DNA of 46,788 bases from Chamaesiphon sp. 336R_metabinner_41 (GTDB taxonomy: Bacteria; Cyanobacteriota; Cyanobacteriia; Cyanobacteriales; Chamaesiphonaceae), in the NCBI GenBank assembly GCA_025359915.1, contig JANYDE010000055.1:1-46788 (forward strand), written 5' to 3'. Every line of letters starts with the position of its first letter. The stretch's first letter is position 1. The notes below the pieces were generated by a model. That model worked only from the letters and a program-made list of their open reading frames with translations. It was not told the DNA's origin and made no database searches. A program made the position numbers and the translations under genes. Positions 8,184 to 17,038 of this stretch are shown here, piece after piece.

Positions 8184-8219
8184 AAAAAAAGCCTCCCAAT
8201 AGATCTTGAGAGGCTTTTC
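8184..8219 (-). terminator. Terminator of the DUF11 gene
   Basis: AAAAAAAGCCTC ... GAGGCTTTTCT forms a stem with poly-A on one side and T on the other. On the minus strand the stem is followed by a run of seven T. It ends transcription from the DUF11 gene about 75 bases after its stop, and may also act weakly in the plus direction. Confidence 0.85.
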
Positions 8220-8291: not shown

Positions 8292-11165
8292 TTATCTGCG
8301 TGAAATCCGAATTTTTTGATCGAAGTTCCAAACTCTTCCGTCGGGCTTTGCCGTTGGTGCGACGGTTTTTCCTCCCTTCACATCATCCACAGTACTAGTT
8401 GTACCTAGATTTTCGATTACTTTGGGTGGAGTTCCTGGTATACGAGCTTCATCTGGGTATGATGTAGTTACTTTGTTGTCATAAATTTTGCCTTCTACTA
8501 CAGTAGTGTTAACTACGGCATTGAAATTGATCTCGACCCCGCCCCCTGGTGGAATTGTAAACCCTGACCAAACTGGTTCTGTTGAATTTACCGTAGGATT
8601 AGGATTCGGTACACTAGTTCGAGTAGCGCCACCTTTCAGAATAACTTCATTATCTATGTTAGTCTTTGGCGCGTAAGCAAAGCCTGGTGGTAGTGTATCC
8701 TTGATATCAACTAATGTTGCACTACCGTTTGGCGCAGTGTTAGTTACTTCTATTTTGTATGTTGCAACCTTACCTTGGACTACTGTTTTTGTAATCGATT
8801 CATTGGCAACACTTAGCTTTGGAGAACAATTAGTAGCATTATTCAGTGAGTTGAAAGGATCTTCGCTATTACTAAAAGCAAGCTTGATTCCATCAGATCC
8901 TGGTGTAGCTCCATGTGGATTCATTGTTTTACCGCTCACCGCTTTGTATGCTTGCTCGGTAGCTGGATCGTCAGTATGACCGCTAGCTCCACCAGTAACA
9001 TAAGCATTGACTGTAGCACCAGGAGCATTGTAGAGCACAACCCCACCGCCACCACCGCCACCTGGCCCGTGAGGGGTATGGCTATAGGGGTAGCCGTCAG
9101 TAGTGTAACCAACAGCCTCACTAGCGTTTTGATTTGCGAGCGTAACTGGAGTCGTCCGATAATTAAAAAAAGCATCTCGCTCGGTACTACCACCATTGCC
9201 ACCTTTGGCTTCAATGGTGATAGTCTTATCAAGACCCACTACAGCATTGCGTGACTGAATCAACACAGTCCCACCAGCACCAGCACCACCAGCACCATCA
9301 GGATTTCCTCCATACGCGCCTCGATCTCCATCTCTGCCATTTGCATAGATACTCCCTGGTCCTTTGATCGTGCCAGCGCGAAGCATTACGATTCCGCCAC
9401 CAGCACCACCAGGGACACCTTGTGGTGAGTCATTTGCTTCACCACCACCGCCACCGCCACCCATGATTAGCTGCCAAGGGACGATAGTCTTGGTTGAGGA
9501 CAAGAATCCAGGACGACCACCAGAATCTTTGGGAACATACGCACTGCCATTCGACCAAGCTAGTCCACCTTGCCCACCAATGCCACCATTACCACCACCA
9601 CCACCACCAGAGTTGTGATAGTTACCGCCACCACCAGCATTTGCTGGAGCACCTCTACCCGTGTCTCCACCTGGATAACCCTCGACAATGTTGTCCAGAG
9701 ATCCACCATTCCAGACGGGACTGCCATCTGCGTTGACGCTGTTTAAAGATTGAGTGGATATAAACCGAGGCGTACCAGCAGTGCCTTCTCCTTTCCCAGA
9801 ACCAGCAGTCTGAGCAGTCGTAATTGCGGTAGGTGCTCCAGAAGCATTAAGACTGACTTTCCCCAAAGTATTTGTCGGATAGATACTTGTCTGGGCAACA
9901 TAAGTGTCAACGGCGGCTAAACCACCATTCTGGAGACCAAAGCCACCCCGAAAACCTGTGCTGTTAGCCGAGATTCGCTGACTGTTAAAATCAAATTGTC
10001 CAAATGTATCGACTGCCAAGATACCCCCAACGTTACCATCCCAAGGTGACGCAAACAGGGTTCCTAGTACTTGTATACTAGAATATTGCGGCACACGAAC
10101 CACCTGAAATCGCTTCTGACCACTACCTAGAATACCAGTACTTGCGGGAATAGCAGCACTACTTATATAGGGATTGATTAGCGGTTTTTTGAGCTTGAGT
10201 GTACTACCGCCACTAGCAGATGAAACATCAGAGGCAGCAATAGCATATTCATATAGCCCAGTATTTCCCATACTAGACTGTCCGCTACCCTGACTGATAG
10301 TAGATCCAGATCCATATATATCTGTGTTTGCTGTGTTGATGCTTGCATCCTGCATTTGGATGATCAATAGCAGATCGCCTGATTTAATATCTTTAGTAGT
10401 ACCTTTGGCAGCACCAGACATAATAGCAATTTCTTTCGATCCAGCGGCTACAGACTGTAAGGCTGGTTGAAAATAGGTATTGATGATGCCAGTGATCCCT
10501 GTCGCAACACCATCGGCACCAGGCGTACCACCACAATAAATTTCGGGCGTAAATTCTTTAGCTGTCTCCGTCTGGACGGCAGTCACTAAAGCTGATAGTT
10601 GTGGAACGGCTTTGATAACGACATTATCGTCTGCACCAGATCCATTATTTGTAACAGCGGTTTGTGCAACCCCCGAACTGTTTTTGTAATTCACAGTAAC
10701 ACTATTGGAAAATGTGCCTACGGTAGCTGAACTAGTGTTTGCGGTGAAAAAGAGAGTGACAATGCCACCCGCTGGAATGTCATAATTGTTCCATTCTAAT
10801 ATGTTGGTATTACTCGTCGATAATGGCTTGATATAGCTCGTGCCAGTACTCGGAACTACTGCTCCTTTGGTGAGGATTGTGAGTTCTTTGTCGTATTTGA
10901 AGCCAGCAGGTAGAGTATCCGTAATCTTGACGTTGCGGGCAGGAAATGTAGAGTTATTCTTGATTGTAACTTGGTAAATAGCGGGACTACCAACTGGAAG
11001 AACCCCTGTTAATGTGATATTTTTGTCAATAGTCAATACAGGATCGTTGGTTCCTGCCATCGCTACTGTCGCAAATGGCAATACTGATGTAGCAATAAAT
11101 ATTAATCCTGTCAAAATACTTGGATATTTGCAGGCTATTAAAGTAATAATGTTTGAAGGTTTCAT
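8292..11165 (-). CDS. Exported DUF11-repeat, glycine-rich surface protein
   Basis: A 957-residue exported protein. Residues 1-37 form a signal peptide (hydrophobic LTGLIFIATSVLPFATVAMA, likely cleavage after AMA). A first DUF11-type beta-sandwich (LTIDKNITLTGVLPVGSPAI, DTLPAGFKYD) spans about 43-170 and a second (ESITKTVVQGKVATYKIEVT, DTLPPGFAYAP) about 785-915. Between them is a block with DLLLIIQMQDASINTANTD, YEYAIAASDVSS, RFQVVRVPQYSSIQVLG and LASPWDG-like segments, followed by very glycine-rich stretches (GGGGNYHNSGGGGGGNGGIG, MGGGGGGGEAND) that probably form a beta-helical or fibrous stalk. DUF11 domains are typical of bacterial outer-surface proteins. No LPXTG or obvious membrane anchor is seen at the basic C-terminus. 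The neighbouring giant pseudopilin gene suggests a shared surface or fibre function; that link is inference. Confidence 0.88.
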   Translation of the reverse strand: MKPSNIITLIACKYPSILTGLIFIATSVLPFATVAMAGTNDPVLTIDKNITLTGVLPVGSPAIYQVTIKNNSTFPARNVKITDTLPAGFKYDKELTILTKGAVVPSTGTSYIKPLSTSNTNILEWNNYDIPAGGIVTLFFTANTSSATVGTFSNSVTVNYKNSSGVAQTAVTNNGSGADDNVVIKAVPQLSALVTAVQTETAKEFTPEIYCGGTPGADGVATGITGIINTYFQPALQSVAAGSKEIAIMSGAAKGTTKDIKSGDLLLIIQMQDASINTANTDIYGSGSTISQGSGQSSMGNTGLYEYAIAASDVSSASGGSTLKLKKPLINPYISSAAIPASTGILGSGQKRFQVVRVPQYSSIQVLGTLFASPWDGNVGGILAVDTFGQFDFNSQRISANSTGFRGGFGLQNGGLAAVDTYVAQTSIYPTNTLGKVSLNASGAPTAITTAQTAGSGKGEGTAGTPRFISTQSLNSVNADGSPVWNGGSLDNIVEGYPGGDTGRGAPANAGGGGNYHNSGGGGGGNGGIGGQGGLAWSNGSAYVPKDSGGRPGFLSSTKTIVPWQLIMGGGGGGGEANDSPQGVPGGAGGGIVMLRAGTIKGPGSIYANGRDGDRGAYGGNPDGAGGAGAGGTVLIQSRNAVVGLDKTITIEAKGGNGGSTERDAFFNYRTTPVTLANQNASEAVGYTTDGYPYSHTPHGPGGGGGGGVVLYNAPGATVNAYVTGGASGHTDDPATEQAYKAVSGKTMNPHGATPGSDGIKLAFSNSEDPFNSLNNATNCSPKLSVANESITKTVVQGKVATYKIEVTNTAPNGSATLVDIKDTLPPGFAYAPKTNIDNEVILKGGATRTSVPNPNPTVNSTEPVWSGFTIPPGGGVEINFNAVVNTTVVEGKIYDNKVTTSYPDEARIPGTPPKVIENLGTTSTVDDVKGGKTVAPTAKPDGRVWNFDQKIRISRR

Positions 11166-11199
11166 GCTGTCGGGGTTTTAGTTGAGTTGAATAGTTATT

Positions 11200-11231
11200 A
11201 AAGATATCTTTTGTTCATCAAAGATATCTTT
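11200..11231. promoter_or_regulatory. Twin 12-bp palindromes upstream of the DUF11 gene
   Basis: AAAGATATCTTT occurs twice (11200-11211 and 11220-11231), each a perfect palindrome, with centres exactly 20 bp apart, i.e. about two helical turns. TTCA follows each a few bases later. They sit 35-66 bases before the DUF11 start codon and 43 bases after the pseudopilin stop. Two phased palindromes next to a start codon look like a cooperative operator. Confidence 0.55.
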
Positions 11232-11274
11232 GGATTTGTTGTTCACCTACGATCTTTATCACACATTAGAAAAA

Positions 11275-14200
11275 TTAATTTGCACGACCAAAACTCCGCT
11301 GAAGAACGTATGATGCTTTTGGAGTTAATGGTGGTATCTTATCCATCTGAGTAAAGAAGGGATCGTAATTAAAGTTTCTGAACGGAACATCATAGTAAGA
11401 GTTACTTAGCCCCCCTCTACGATACGCCCCACTGTATTCTAATGGTGTGCCAAGACTAATCAGCGATCCAGTATAGTTGAGGGAATTACTTCCCCAGTTT
11501 TCTAATAACCGGATATAGTTATTTACCCCGCCACTATAATATGAATTTTCTCCTACCTTCAATGGTCTACCCTGGTTGCCTTTGCTGATATCAGTGTTTG
11601 ACAAAAAAGCAGCATTTATTGCCACCGGAGTAGCAACTGAATCATAGGTAGCTGTATCGCCGTTACCAATGACATCAAAAGATCCAGTAGTCGATCGAGG
11701 CAGCCCACATTTAATTTGACCTCCGGGGACAGCCAGAAAGTTTGTATTGCCTTGACTAGAGTTTTTACTAATACATTCATTCGACAAAACCGTAATTGTA
11801 TCGGCAATTACTGAGGCAGGAAATCTATTTTTACTTGGTACATTTGGAGTACTAAAAGCAGTGGGTTGGGCTGCAATGTCGTTGTTGAAATCACCCTGGA
11901 GATACACAGATTGATCGCTACTCAAAAGCAGGGCACCTGGTAAATAGTTACCACCATTAAAAGCAAAACCAAACGGACTTTGTCTTGCTGCTAGACCTGG
12001 ATATTTTCGATAGTAATCAATGAGAACTCTTTCGTTTGTGCTTGACTCAGGAAGATTTTTGTCTGGAAGAAAGTCGGTACCATCAGAGTTCTTTTTGTAA
12101 ATTGGGTTTGCTGTGTCGAGAGTGACATCATTCGTATCATTACCCGCTGAAATATTAGGAGTAGTGTTTGGTGCTGAAGTATTGCCTAGTACATTAATCG
12201 TTGAATCACCATTGAGGTTGTCACTAACAGAAGCATAGAAAACTAATCCGCCTTCAGTCTTATCGATCGAACCCAATCCTAAAGATTGAAGATTAGCTGG
12301 TAGTTCCGATATTGATGTTTTTTCTGTATCTACCGGAGATCGATCGAACGCAAATCCATTCGCAGAATTCGCACCAGTTCCACTAGCAAAAGCAATGTTT
12401 TTTTTAGCATTGTTTGTTGCGTAAGGAGTGGTAAGCGTAGTGTCATCAACTGCATCATCGACGTACAAACCATCACGATTCCAGACAGACAAACTAGCAA
12501 TATTAGTTTGGAGCATCGAAATCCATCTTTGCTCTCTGCCATCATAAAATCCACTACTACGAAGATTACGAGCTGGATCTGGATTATAAGCAGCAGGACT
12601 ACCTGGAATATCACCTGATGGAGTAGTTGTCTCTACTCGCTGAATGGGGGCTGGAAGAAACCAAGCACCCTGAAGTGCCGCAATCTCATTTGGTGATCTA
12701 AAGCGAAGTATATTGAGATCGGCTTTCTCACTGGTTGTTGTGAAAATACCATCAAGCAGTCGGATGAATTCCAGCTTAAAAGCATTAAGCGATCCGTTAT
12801 TGTATTCTGTATCGTTAAAACGAATATTCAGTTTATCCAACGGAATTGGAGTTGACGTGGAGACTAGTGCCACTTGGAGAGCGCGGAGGATTTTACGACT
12901 CCGTACTGTGTCTTCAGTAGGGCTAAGGGTGCTCAACGTTGGTGGTGTTGGTAACGACGATGGTTTTCCTAGCGTCTCGAATATTTTGTTTTCACTGGCT
13001 ACTAAAGCAGGAATCTGATTGAGACTAGTCAACACGAGGACGGGTTGGCGCAGACTTTGAAGTTGACCTTTGGTGAATTCATGACACTTGAGATTGCTTA
13101 CATTCTCTCGCTTTGGATCGATATAATCTACGGCAGGATCTTTACCTGCTGGTGGCGTTGCACTTGAGCAAGTCTTAGTATTAGGATCTGCAACAGTTTT
13201 GATTGAAATAAAGTTGAAAGGAATAATTGCTTGGTTACGAGTCCAAGGTGTTGTGGTTTTTTTGTTACCAGATAGATCTCGATCTGGTACCATTTCTAAT
13301 CGCATATCAGCTTGAGCATAATATAGCCCAATTGTATTATCACGATAACTACGCTTTCTTGTGAAACCAGGTATTGGCGTCTTTAGTTCAGTGATACCAT
13401 TTTCTACTTTTTTTACATTCTGGAACTTAAAAGTGTCAATTTGACCACTGGTAAGAGCAGCTATCGTGCTGGCACCAGTAGAATCCTGGGGAAGATCTAG
13501 ACAGTTGCTTGGAATATCACAATTAATTCCCGTCAGTAGAACTTTCGTAATTCCGGTGCGACCAATCCCCAGGTTTTCGGCGGGGGACCAAAAAGCATCT
13601 ACTCTGTTGTAAATACTTCCTTTTGCAGTCACTTTGCCCAAAAATGTTGTGACCGAATCGCCTATTTTTCCAGTCTCTCCGGCTGGCTGGACATAGATAT
13701 TGGCATTGGAATGTACCCAACCTTGCAGTTGCATTTGAGAGGTTGAGTTGAATTCGAGATCTCCATTGTAAAAGACACCAAATTGAAATAGAGGTACAAC
13801 TCTATTTACAAAAGTCATGGATAAATCTAAGTTACTACTACTTTTTCCTGATGCTGCTTCTGCTGTTTTTTCTTCTGCGGCAATCTTTTTGCTATTGTAA
13901 GAGGCGACCAAAGCATCATCACCCTGATTTGGACTCTTTGCCTCCTTTCGATTTGCTGCGGCTATTTCCTCTGTCGTATACTCAGGTAAAGTTATACCTT
14001 CTGAATCCACTGGTTTTTTTGCAGTAGCAGATATTTTGTAGGTAAATTCTGCGGCATTTAATCCTTCATAATCATCACCTTTGGGAATTGAGATAAACTG
14101 TGACGATTTCCCACCAGAAATAGCTGTGTAAGCAACATATTTATTCTTATCTTGTCCCTTCTTGTTGTATACGTTGGAATCCAAAGAAGTATTTCCGCCT

Positions 14201-14616
14201 GCGGCTACTTGATATGCATTGTTGCTAGACTCAAAACTATAATTGCGACATTCAAAATCATTTGTTGTTGTTTGACGACTTTTTGACTGCCCAGCAGGGA
14301 TAGGAATCCGAAAACACTCTGCCAAATCATCTACACCTACCCCCCGAACACCAGTATAAGAAGCCGCAAGTTTTGTTTTGAATTCACTCGCTCTTTTATT
14401 CAAGCCTGATTCCGCAACATAAAAAGAACTCATGGTATCTACAAAACCACTAGTTCTAGATTTGGCTAAATTACTAAATGTCATACTAGCCGCGAGGAGC
14501 GAAAGCATCACAATGCTCACCATCGACACCATCGCCATTGCATAGCCTTGTTCTGATGATTTATCGATTTTCTGCGCTTTTAAAAAAAGGCAAAGTAACT
14601 TTGTATTATTACTCAT
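11275..14616 (-). CDS. Giant PilX-like pseudopilin (HpsA-like architecture)
   Basis: Read from the ATG at 14616 (MSNNTKLLCL) this is a 1113-residue protein; an upstream in-frame start at 14766 would add 50 residues without a hydrophobic or conserved feature and is not preferred. Near residue 23 it has EQGYAMAMVSMVSIVMLSLL then AASMTFS, a single hydrophobic helix of PilX/pseudopilin type, followed by FYVAESGLNKRASEF, the AESG motif common in such proteins. The canonical Glu at position +5 of class III signals is absent. The rest is a large Ser/Thr/Asn-rich exported domain (MQLQGWVHSNANIYVQPAGE; YYAQADMRLEMVPDRDLSGN). The layout recalls the cyanobacterial pseudopilin HpsA, but I cannot confirm orthology. 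It could be a minor pilus subunit or a pilus-tip adhesin. It lies upstream of the DUF11 gene, same strand. Confidence 0.8.
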   Translation of the reverse strand: MSNNTKLLCLFLKAQKIDKSSEQGYAMAMVSMVSIVMLSLLAASMTFSNLAKSRTSGFVDTMSSFYVAESGLNKRASEFKTKLAASYTGVRGVGVDDLAECFRIPIPAGQSKSRQTTTNDFECRNYSFESSNNAYQVAAGGNTSLDSNVYNKKGQDKNKYVAYTAISGGKSSQFISIPKGDDYEGLNAAEFTYKISATAKKPVDSEGITLPEYTTEEIAAANRKEAKSPNQGDDALVASYNSKKIAAEEKTAEAASGKSSSNLDLSMTFVNRVVPLFQFGVFYNGDLEFNSTSQMQLQGWVHSNANIYVQPAGETGKIGDSVTTFLGKVTAKGSIYNRVDAFWSPAENLGIGRTGITKVLLTGINCDIPSNCLDLPQDSTGASTIAALTSGQIDTFKFQNVKKVENGITELKTPIPGFTRKRSYRDNTIGLYYAQADMRLEMVPDRDLSGNKKTTTPWTRNQAIIPFNFISIKTVADPNTKTCSSATPPAGKDPAVDYIDPKRENVSNLKCHEFTKGQLQSLRQPVLVLTSLNQIPALVASENKIFETLGKPSSLPTPPTLSTLSPTEDTVRSRKILRALQVALVSTSTPIPLDKLNIRFNDTEYNNGSLNAFKLEFIRLLDGIFTTTSEKADLNILRFRSPNEIAALQGAWFLPAPIQRVETTTPSGDIPGSPAAYNPDPARNLRSSGFYDGREQRWISMLQTNIASLSVWNRDGLYVDDAVDDTTLTTPYATNNAKKNIAFASGTGANSANGFAFDRSPVDTEKTSISELPANLQSLGLGSIDKTEGGLVFYASVSDNLNGDSTINVLGNTSAPNTTPNISAGNDTNDVTLDTANPIYKKNSDGTDFLPDKNLPESSTNERVLIDYYRKYPGLAARQSPFGFAFNGGNYLPGALLLSSDQSVYLQGDFNNDIAAQPTAFSTPNVPSKNRFPASVIADTITVLSNECISKNSSQGNTNFLAVPGGQIKCGLPRSTTGSFDVIGNGDTATYDSVATPVAINAAFLSNTDISKGNQGRPLKVGENSYYSGGVNNYIRLLENWGSNSLNYTGSLISLGTPLEYSGAYRRGGLSNSYYDVPFRNFNYDPFFTQMDKIPPLTPKASYVLQRSFGRAN

Positions 14617-15013
14617 ATAAGTGTCAGGCGTTCGGGTTCGGGGTATGAAAAAGATAGCGGATGCGATGCGCCCTTGATTCCCCGACAATGCACACTCATC
14701 CGGCAGCGGGGAAATATATGATTTGTTACAGAATAGATTGCCATGCCTCTGATATGGCAATGTCAAATTTCGTTGGTATAGCTAGTATTCCCAAAATCGC
14801 AAAAAACATATCAGGTGTTTGAAAGAATATTTTGATGTTTTTTGAGTGATTTAGATCGCAAATAGACTAGTGTGTATGTGATAGGATACCGAAAATATAT
14901 ACCATCGCAAAATAAGAAAAATTACTTCAATTTACACACATCTTGTACCAGAATAAAACTATGATTATTAGGCGTAGATCTTAGAGGCTGTTTGAAAAGT
15001 CTTTTTTGTTACC

Positions 15014-15442: not shown

Positions 15443-17038
15443 ATGGCAATTGCGATCGATTTTGGGACTAGTAATACCGTGATCAGTCGTTGGAATGCAG
15501 CGACACAACAAGCTGAAACGGTGATATTACCTGGATTGTCTCTGGTTGGGGGCATGAATCCACCGTTGATTCCCAGTTTGGTATATGTGGAGGATGGGAG
15601 TACAGATCGAGTCTTATTAGGTCAAATGGTACGAGATCGAGGTCTAGATCTTCAAGCAGATAACCGTTATTTTCGGGGCTTTAAGCGGGGAATTGGGGCG
15701 GAGATTCAGGGATTTTTGCCGGAATTGGATGGGGTGTCGATGACATTCGAGCGGGTGGGGGAGTTGTTCCTGACGGGGATAATTAAGCAGTTGCAACAGT
15801 CGTTAACTGTTGGGGAATCCTTGGTATTGACGGTTCCGGTGGATAGTTTTGAGGTGTATCGCCGCTGGTTGAGTGGGGTATGTGCGACGCTACCTGTGGA
15901 GCAGGTGCGGCTGATAGATGAGCCGACAGCGGCGGCGTTGGGGTATGGGATGACAGCAGCGGAGACGTTGCTGGTGGTCGATTTTGGCGGGGGGACGTTG
16001 GATTTATCCCTGGTGCAGTTGACGAAGCAATTACAGCAGGGTAAAACGCCGTTAGGCTTCTTGTTGAAGTGGGGGGATAAATCGATCGAATCTGCGACTC
16101 AACAGCCCCAGTTGGCGCGGGTAATTGCCAAAGCTGGGCAAAATTTGGGGGGGACGGATATCGATAATTGGGTGGCGCAGGAGTTGGCGCGGGAGCAGGG
16201 GGTAGAAGTAACTTCTTTGATTGCGCGGTTGGCGGAGAAGTTAAAAATTCAGTTATCTTTGCAAACTACGGCGACGGAAGTGTATTTTGACGATCGAACT
16301 TTTGATAGTTATGAGTTTAATCTCACTCGTGATGGATTCGAGCAAATTTTAAGATCTCATCAATTTTTCGACAGGTTGGATGAATCGATGACGCAGGTAC
16401 TCCAACAAGCGCGAAGACAGGGGATCGAAACTAATGATATTAATGGGGTGCTATTAGTCGGCGGTACTGTCCAAATTCCCGCTGTCCAAACTTGGATTCG
16501 GCAGTATTTTGATGAAAGTAAATTGCGCCAATCCAAACCATTTGAAGCGATCGCTCACGGTGCTTTACAATTACTTCAGGGGATCGAAGTCGAAGATTTT
16601 CTCTACCATAGTTATGGCGTTCGCTATTGGGATAAACGCCAAAATGCTCACAATTGGCATCCAATTATTCAGTCGGGACAAGCTTATCCGATGTCCGCAC
16701 CTGTCGAATTGACTCTCGGAGCATCGCGGGAAAATCAACCCAGTATCGAATTAATTGTCGGCGAACTGGGTGCCACAACTGGGGGGACGGAGGTCTATTT
16801 CGATGGAGATCGATTAATTACTCGCTGTCTAACTGGCGGGGTGAAAGATGTCAAACCTTTGAACGATCGCGATGGGGGTCGAAGTATTGCTAAACTCGAA
16901 CCAGCGGGTTATCCTGGGATCGATCGAGTCAAGGTGTTGTTTAATGTCGATCGAGATCGACAGTTACGGATTAGTGTCGAGGATTTACTCACTAATCAAA
17001 CACTGCTAACTGACAGAATTGTTGCAGAATTGAGTTGA
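15443..17038 (+). CDS. Hsp70-family actin-like ATPase
   Basis: A 531-residue Hsp70 homologue, shorter than canonical DnaK (about 610-640). The nucleotide-binding domain is intact: phosphate-1 motif IDFGTSNTVISRW at residues 5-17, DEPTAAALGYG in the middle, phosphate-2 motif VVDFGGGTLDLSL, and the adenosine motif LVGGTVQIPAVQTWI near residue 335. After about residue 390 there is only a reduced beta-rich substrate-binding part (VKVLFNVDRDRQLRISVEDL) and no helical lid or EEVD-like tail. Such short Hsp70s are common in cyanobacteria and their clients are unknown. No dnaJ or grpE gene is nearby. It is flanked by copies of the same palindromic repeat. Confidence 0.9.
   Translation: MAIAIDFGTSNTVISRWNAATQQAETVILPGLSLVGGMNPPLIPSLVYVEDGSTDRVLLGQMVRDRGLDLQADNRYFRGFKRGIGAEIQGFLPELDGVSMTFERVGELFLTGIIKQLQQSLTVGESLVLTVPVDSFEVYRRWLSGVCATLPVEQVRLIDEPTAAALGYGMTAAETLLVVDFGGGTLDLSLVQLTKQLQQGKTPLGFLLKWGDKSIESATQQPQLARVIAKAGQNLGGTDIDNWVAQELAREQGVEVTSLIARLAEKLKIQLSLQTTATEVYFDDRTFDSYEFNLTRDGFEQILRSHQFFDRLDESMTQVLQQARRQGIETNDINGVLLVGGTVQIPAVQTWIRQYFDESKLRQSKPFEAIAHGALQLLQGIEVEDFLYHSYGVRYWDKRQNAHNWHPIIQSGQAYPMSAPVELTLGASRENQPSIELIVGELGATTGGTEVYFDGDRLITRCLTGGVKDVKPLNDRDGGRSIAKLEPAGYPGIDRVKVLFNVDRDRQLRISVEDLLTNQTLLTDRIVAELS

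Follow-up and report, generated by a model that had tools for sequence, protein, structure and literature searches.

Two adjacent minus-strand genes in a 46,788-nucleotide stretch of Chamaesiphon sp. 336R_metabinner_41 (contig JANYDE010000055.1, here called the window) encode a giant pilin of 1113 residues and a secreted protein of 957 residues with DUF11 domains at both ends. Judged by its sequence, the pilin is a homologue of the large terminal minor pilin that lacks Glu5 (PilX/GspK-like; Slr2018 in Synechocystis). The two genes, each from a known family, appear to form an operon that is limited to the genus. We consider that there is about an even chance that this operon makes an alternative type IV pilus tip, in which the DUF11 protein would serve as a tip cargo that is PilY1-like, although not homologous to PilY1. 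The proposal is built on the homology of the pilin family, on the loss of its usual place in an operon, on the dispersal of its genes and on the operon features of the pair, all as read from the DNA. The source genome (G000) comprises 4.23 Mb in 169 contigs, is 100% complete with 3.42% contamination, and includes the window as contig C5. It is one of nine Chamaesiphon genomes (G000-G008) in the sample.

Both open reading frames (ORFs) were present where an earlier note on this DNA had placed them. That of the pilin (11275-14766, minus strand) gives 1163 residues from a TTG codon and 1113 residues from the ATG at 14616; we favour the ATG because a Chamaesiphon relative (L056) opens with identical residues. 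The leader, which is of the class-III type, reads SSEQG ahead of the predicted cleavage point and YAMAMVSMVSIVML after it. In an alignment of 16 full-length pilins (A5, drawn from the 24 rows of the tree described below; the other eight are partial or near relatives of kept rows), G24 ahead of the hydrophobic helix is invariant. Glutamate at +5 is found in none of the 16, the residue being hydrophobic in 14 and threonine in two, and conserved blocks extend to the C-terminus, where the conserved tail ends in RI(V/S)R(K/R). The 860-position profile from this alignment matches the window copy, itself among the 16 rows, over positions 6-858 with 989 bits. The full-length homology, the invariant G24 and the lack of Glu5 bear out the suggestion of the earlier note that the protein is PilX-like. 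No Pfam model matched it at E <= 1, and its sole related NCBIfam match was to HpsA (NF038301), at 30.3 bits where the cut-off is 400.

Outside Chamaesiphon the family occupies a consistent genomic place. Of the 195 genomes scanned from the order, 147 matched the pilin profile at E <= 1e-5; at most four first-look candidates were scored in each, so that copy numbers are lower bounds. Close homologues of ~760-1000 residues occur in 25 non-Chamaesiphon genomes, and most other matches are weak ones in longer frames (mostly 1400-1900 residues) that are presumably HpsA-like. Each of these 25 begins 7-305 nt behind a co-oriented gene of the PilW type. This count covers the outside-genus genomes with strong matches (E <= 1e-72), leaves out the weak matches on the longer frames, and merges the pieces of G072 and those of G186 into one row each. 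A PilW profile at E <= 1e-20 recovers exactly the same 25 non-Chamaesiphon genomes. Eight loci were opened fully (G009, G010, G050, G012, G023, G025, G036 and G045), and each has GspH-like, PilV-like and PilW-like genes followed by the giant gene.

This plan matches that of the Synechocystis operon pilA9-pilA10-pilA11-slr2018, which is reported to be required for motility (PMC5924778) and for flocculation (PMC6755745); a review names PilA9-12 as the minor-pilin set of Synechocystis (PMC12288463). Two slr2018 primers given in PMC5924778 encode the peptides SGLLVA and AEGALN, both of which are present in the G045 homologue (L085). The primer sequence itself had no match in 388 genomes; the link to Slr2018 comes from two peptides and the place in the operon. 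According to PMC5207764, the first subunit of a pilus is recognised by large size, a hydrophobic residue replacing Glu5 and a position at the 3' end of the gene cluster. Glu5 is absent from both PilX and GspK, and PilX is placed on top of the pilus, beneath or holding PilY1 (PMC7541494). On its predicted features the pilin family bears the first-subunit marks, and the window copy bears all of them except the place in the cluster.

Within Chamaesiphon, gene positions indicate that the terminal pilin has left the usual cluster and multiplied. We identified four giant PilX copies in G000 (on C5, C35, C57 and C108) and at least two to three each in G003, G005 and G006. The genus contributed 16 giant-PilX rows (the fragment rows G003:C137, G004:C178 and G005:C44 were left out), and none of these genes has a PilW gene next to it, i.e., placement in a minor-pilin operon was not found for any of them. 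A profile search detected a PilW-type gene in five of the nine genomes (G000, G002, G003, G005 and G006). There the minor-pilin set is present, but the gene behind PilW is short and unrelated (Tic20-like, by eye), no giant PilX follows, and in four of the five loci, where the contig continues, the gene for ribosomal protein L21 comes next (by eye). The PilV-type gene of the G002 minor-pilin cluster was not listed by the ORF caller. No PilW match was obtained in G001, G004, G007 or G008; since these genomes are 77-91% complete, this is weak evidence of absence.

One orthologue group of giant PilX genes adjoins gltX wherever the contig reaches that far (G000, G002, G006 and G008). Another copy lies beside caspase-like and CheW-like genes (by eye), in an order shared by G000 and G005 (L011:4726-10614 and L071:9218-14825). 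In the tree of 24 rows (L056, a copy of the N-terminal part of the G005 sequence, was left out; G001_C80 is partial, at 305 residues, and G012 is on a long branch), the window pilin groups with that of G005 (98/97), then with those of G006 and G003 (100/100), and then with that of G004 (100/99).

The order of pilin gene followed by DUF11 gene recurs in two of the eight other Chamaesiphon genomes. In G006 the DUF11 gene lies behind the pilin with a spacer that resembles that of the window. In G003 it is encoded on C137, the end of which carries the last pilin codons, and the remainder of the pilin is on C571; we infer that the two are linked across the contig break. A C-terminal fragment of a DUF11 protein was identified at a contig end in G001. 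The earlier note had named restriction of the pair to one genome as grounds for rejecting its idea; with two genomes and the fragment in a third, the pair is conserved beyond the window. The pairwise identities of the DUF11 proteins of G000, G006 and G003 are 52, 52 and 73%. The gene order is not due to chance, since it is repeated in two genomes with DUF11 proteins that share 52% identity with that of the window.

The spacer between the two genes in the window is 109 nt long and contains no terminator. Of the 118 columns in the alignment of the G000, G006 and G003 spacers, 64 are invariant, and the inverted repeat within the spacers (Table 1) can form a modest hairpin (z -1.0 in the window, -2.7 in G006 and -2.5 in G003). 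A terminator stands behind the DUF11 gene in all three pair genomes (z -6.2, -2.3 and -4.6 in G000, G006 and G003, respectively); that of the window was overlooked by the automated scan, its loop being longer than the scan permits. In G005, which lacks the partner, a terminator-like hairpin directly follows the pilin gene (by eye).

Table 1. Features of the giant pilin gene, its DUF11 partner gene and the flanking signals, in window coordinates.
Feature	Position	Strand	Basis
Giant PilX/GspK-type minor pilin (Slr2018-like family), 1113 aa	11275..14616	-	ORF, 15-homologue full-length alignment, tree
Class-III-type prepilin leader, residues 1-24, ending in G24	14545..14616	-	Alignment A5; cleavage predicted
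Hydrophobic N-terminal helix, residues 25-52, M at +5	14461..14544	-	Sequence and alignment A5
Spacer inverted repeat AAAGATATCTTT-N8-AAAGATATCTTT	11200..11231	-	The hairpin recurs in G006 and G003; modest
Secreted DUF11 / Gly-rich (AgmC-like) / DUF11 protein, 957 aa	8292..11165	-	ORF and profile matches
Sec-type signal peptide, about residues 1-37	11055..11165	-	By eye; predicted
First DUF11, residues 55-175	10641..11003	-	PF01345, 53.3 bits (cut-off 24.6)
Gly-rich AgmC_N-like stretch, residues 498-728	8982..9674	-	133.8 bits (cut-off 275); glycine runs
Second DUF11-type domain, about residues 791-903	8457..8795	-	Profile matches
Intrinsic terminator 3' of the DUF11 gene	8184..8214	-	Shared with G006 and G003; window z -6.2

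The partner protein has the architecture that the earlier note described, with DUF11 at both ends (PF01345 matches the first best) and a glycine-rich middle (26% glycine over residues 501-780). Both products are of the exported type, as that note also held, on the evidence of the predicted leader of the pilin and the putative signal peptide of its partner. Its description of both as low in cysteine is roughly right at most, the counts being nine and three. The PilY1 domain (PF05567) had no match in the 957-residue protein at E <= 1. A search for PilY1 elsewhere with the same model found it in none of 40 genomes, and the control genomes were equally silent. A role for DUF11 in forming isopeptide bonds was considered and dropped: TIGR04226 scored 43.4 bits (cut-off 30), but the lysine near residue 48 is absent from two of three orthologues, the conserved isopeptide lysine of that model presumably being positioned in the first strand. 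Sequence searches against solved structures returned nothing for the pilin profile or the DUF11-protein profile.

Relatives of the partner are encoded elsewhere in a different setting. A profile built from the three DUF11 proteins picked up homologues at E <= 1e-10 in four Chamaesiphon genomes, in G010 (where only the C-terminal DUF11 is matched) and in ten further genomes, 15 in all among the 388 searched from the order. Eleven loci were opened from the ten non-Chamaesiphon genomes, and no giant-PilX, PilW or PilV match was identified among their ORFs; a lone pilin-motif match was set aside as chance, as the ORF reads as GroEL. In ten of the eleven, a protein of 1170-1520 residues with Ig-like and barrel-like parts is encoded at most two genes upstream of the DUF11/Gly-rich gene, and the eleventh (L124) has merely a 216-residue ORF like the C-terminal end of the barrel protein (by eye). 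A barrel profile built from those ten proteins (A6) matched in 147 of the 388 genomes, including G001, G008 and G000 (C129, where the match contains one stop). Of the three pair genomes, two gave no match to it: G003 and G006, the latter being near-complete.

No barrel gene is present at the locus of the window pair. The surroundings of the C129 barrel gene are rich in DUF11, and no Gly-rich homologue was identified there at E <= 1e-3. More generally, loci L121-L131 contain a widespread cyanobacterial barrel operon (an Ig/barrel protein and short DUF11 proteins), sometimes with an OmpA-like or Gly-rich last gene, and several of the barrel genes carry an internal stop. No NCBIfam model matched the four barrel proteins scanned. 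The window protein shares the Gly-rich region and the C-terminal DUF11 with AgmC (NF047640) and with the last gene of barrel operons, but differs in its extra N-terminal DUF11, in having no adjacent barrel gene and in scoring under the AgmC cut-off. The homologues in other genomes lack the N-terminal DUF11, their main matches starting at profile positions 187-293, and the first DUF11 is present in no homologue outside Chamaesiphon. The middle of the window protein has a further relative in G000, an orphan Gly-rich/DUF11 protein of 485 residues (C45; L014:65-1522).

About 0.77 Mb of G000 was read for pilus machinery. We identified a pilM-pilN-pilO-secretin (pilMNOQ) cluster, which was confirmed with Pfam, and two major-type pilins. 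Two tandem minor-pilin sets in G000 (L133; C63:55000-74999) include PilX-like proteins of 483 and 549 residues that carry DUF7305.

We infer that the pair would function as follows. The prepilin peptidase would cut the pilin leader after G24, and the helix without Glu5 would then cap the GspH/PilV/PilW-like complex (encoded on C64) that initiates the pilus, so that the pilin is outermost and its large C-terminal part stands at the pilus tip. The DUF11/Gly-rich protein would be exported by Sec and held at the tip by the pilin, as PilX holds PilY1, and from there would contact surfaces or neighbours. The earlier note had likewise suggested that the pilin is the assembly or tip part, with the DUF11 protein carried by it as cargo or forming its stalk, and for the tip part and its cargo this is plausible. 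Given the empty PilX place in the minor-pilin cluster and the scattering of several giant PilX genes, a single common base could bear any of several exchangeable tips. It is possible, although we hold the idea tentatively, that a shared minor-pilin base takes several dispersed giant PilX proteins, at least one of which carries a non-PilY1 adhesin that was recruited from the barrel operon and given an N-terminal DUF11. Myxococcus has three minor-pilin/PilY1 sets, which are thought to yield tips of differing property (PMC7541494); by analogy, Chamaesiphon may achieve tip variety with one base and several tips.

Several observations weigh against an alternative pilus tip. The partner was not found in G005 (99% complete) or G004 (91%), both of which keep a pilin orthologue; thus the pilin can do without the partner, which is an accessory. 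G004 has this orthologue without a PilW match at E <= 1e-20, and the other minor-pilin sets of G000 could also act as the base. No PilB or PilT motif was seen in the ~0.77 Mb of G000 read, the rest not having been searched. The spacer hairpin of the window is no stronger than those of shuffled sequences. The genome of the window keeps one barrel gene (C129), and since relatives of the partner accompany the barrel operon, an alternative route for its export or anchoring is possible. AlphaFold2 models were unusable both for the 957-residue protein alone (mean pLDDT 32) and for the pilin with L056 (mean pLDDT 26).

These observations bear on other explanations of the pair. The genes may be mere transcriptional neighbours, the DUF11 protein keeping an ancestral job in the outer membrane or sheath and the pilin serving an ordinary pilus. 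The barrel operons of ten other genomes that hold relatives of the DUF11 protein are consistent with this, as are the pilin orthologues without a partner in G005 and G004. We nevertheless consider it unlikely, as order, spacer and terminator are retained across lineages at 52-58% protein identity and the barrel was not found in two of the three pair genomes. Similarly doubtful is a reading in which the DUF11/Gly-rich protein is a matrix or surface substrate pushed out by the pilus machine, in the way proposed for GspK, the pseudopilus tip of type II secretion, and its substrates, and not retained at the tip. A GspK-like pilin without Glu5 adjoins a protein with a predicted Sec signal, GspK has been proposed to touch substrates (PMC7541494), and the Gly-rich family consists of large, repetitive proteins, but the papers on relatives of the pilin (PMC6755745 and PMC5924778) connect them with motility and flocculation rather than with known substrate secretion.

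The pilin is very unlikely to be an HpsA-type protein for secretion of a motility polysaccharide. The HpsA profile does match the window pilin and three paralogues weakly, in the centre and at the C-terminus, but the score is far under the cut-off, neither hps genes nor a glycosyltransferase set adjoin the pilin, and its close family is of a ~850-residue minor-pilin type, distinct from the weakly matched 1400-1900-residue frames. Least probable, and by our estimate remote, is a new surface fibre built of the two proteins, which the earlier note advanced as a possible undescribed fibre and the best candidate for a new system. Both proteins are large, of the exported type and linked. However, G000 possesses ordinary type IV pilus parts, no dedicated assembly gene lies beside the pair, and each family has routine other partners, which that note had itself named as evidence to the contrary: the PilW-type operon for the pilin and the barrel operon for the DUF11 protein. 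Thus, a new fibre system is not supported.

An alternative pilus tip, our preferred explanation, can be compared with described systems. Slr2018 (PilA12), encoded by the last gene of its operon, resembles the window pilin in the two primer peptides and in the operon place of the relatives; the window copy differs in lying outside a minor-pilin operon, as one of four, with a secreted partner downstream, and the comparison with Slr2018 covers those two peptides only. PilX/GspK-type terminal minor pilins share large size, the leader glycine, the absence of Glu5 and, for the relatives of the pilin, the 3' end of the cluster, whereas the window pilin has ~1100 residues, its genes are dispersed and its tip location is predicted. 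In the PilX-PilY1 tip unit (e.g., of Myxococcus xanthus), a pilin gene is likewise followed by one for a large Sec-exported non-pilin, but the partner in the window lacks PF05567 and has DUF11 and Gly-rich domains. For PilX and PilY1 themselves, an exchange of strands has been predicted (PMC13190605). We found no literature on Chamaesiphon pili or on the pilin/DUF11 pair, nor any that joins AgmC with Myxococcus gliding or HpsA with hormogonium polysaccharide and a pseudopilin.

The immediate neighbours of the pair include no pilin and no polysaccharide gene, in agreement with the earlier note. Two genes for ferredoxin-dependent bilin reductases (PF05996; 5517-6248 and 6543-7280, plus strand), probably pebA and pebB, point towards the DUF11 gene. 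A 531-residue Hsp70-like protein (15443-17038, plus strand) is encoded divergently to the pilin, with the same neighbour in G006 (L057:9949-11544). In Nostoc, pilus motors have been linked to a DnaK system (PMC9239167). The Hsp70-like protein was dropped as a functional partner: it adjoins the pilin in G000 and G006 and was unseen in the G003 and G005 neighbourhoods. Candidate promoters in the window were at the level of shuffled sequence (19 found, 17.3 expected).

The tip composition of cyanobacterial type IV pili, and how minor-pilin sets determine function, are described as open in a 2025 review (PMC12288463). With a terminal pilin that has left its operon and multiplied, and with one copy that has gained a secreted partner, Chamaesiphon represents a natural experiment on tip exchange, in which the DUF11 protein is a candidate PilY1 substitute. 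Chamaesiphon grows attached to stones and other algae, and adhesive tips would suit this attached lifestyle.

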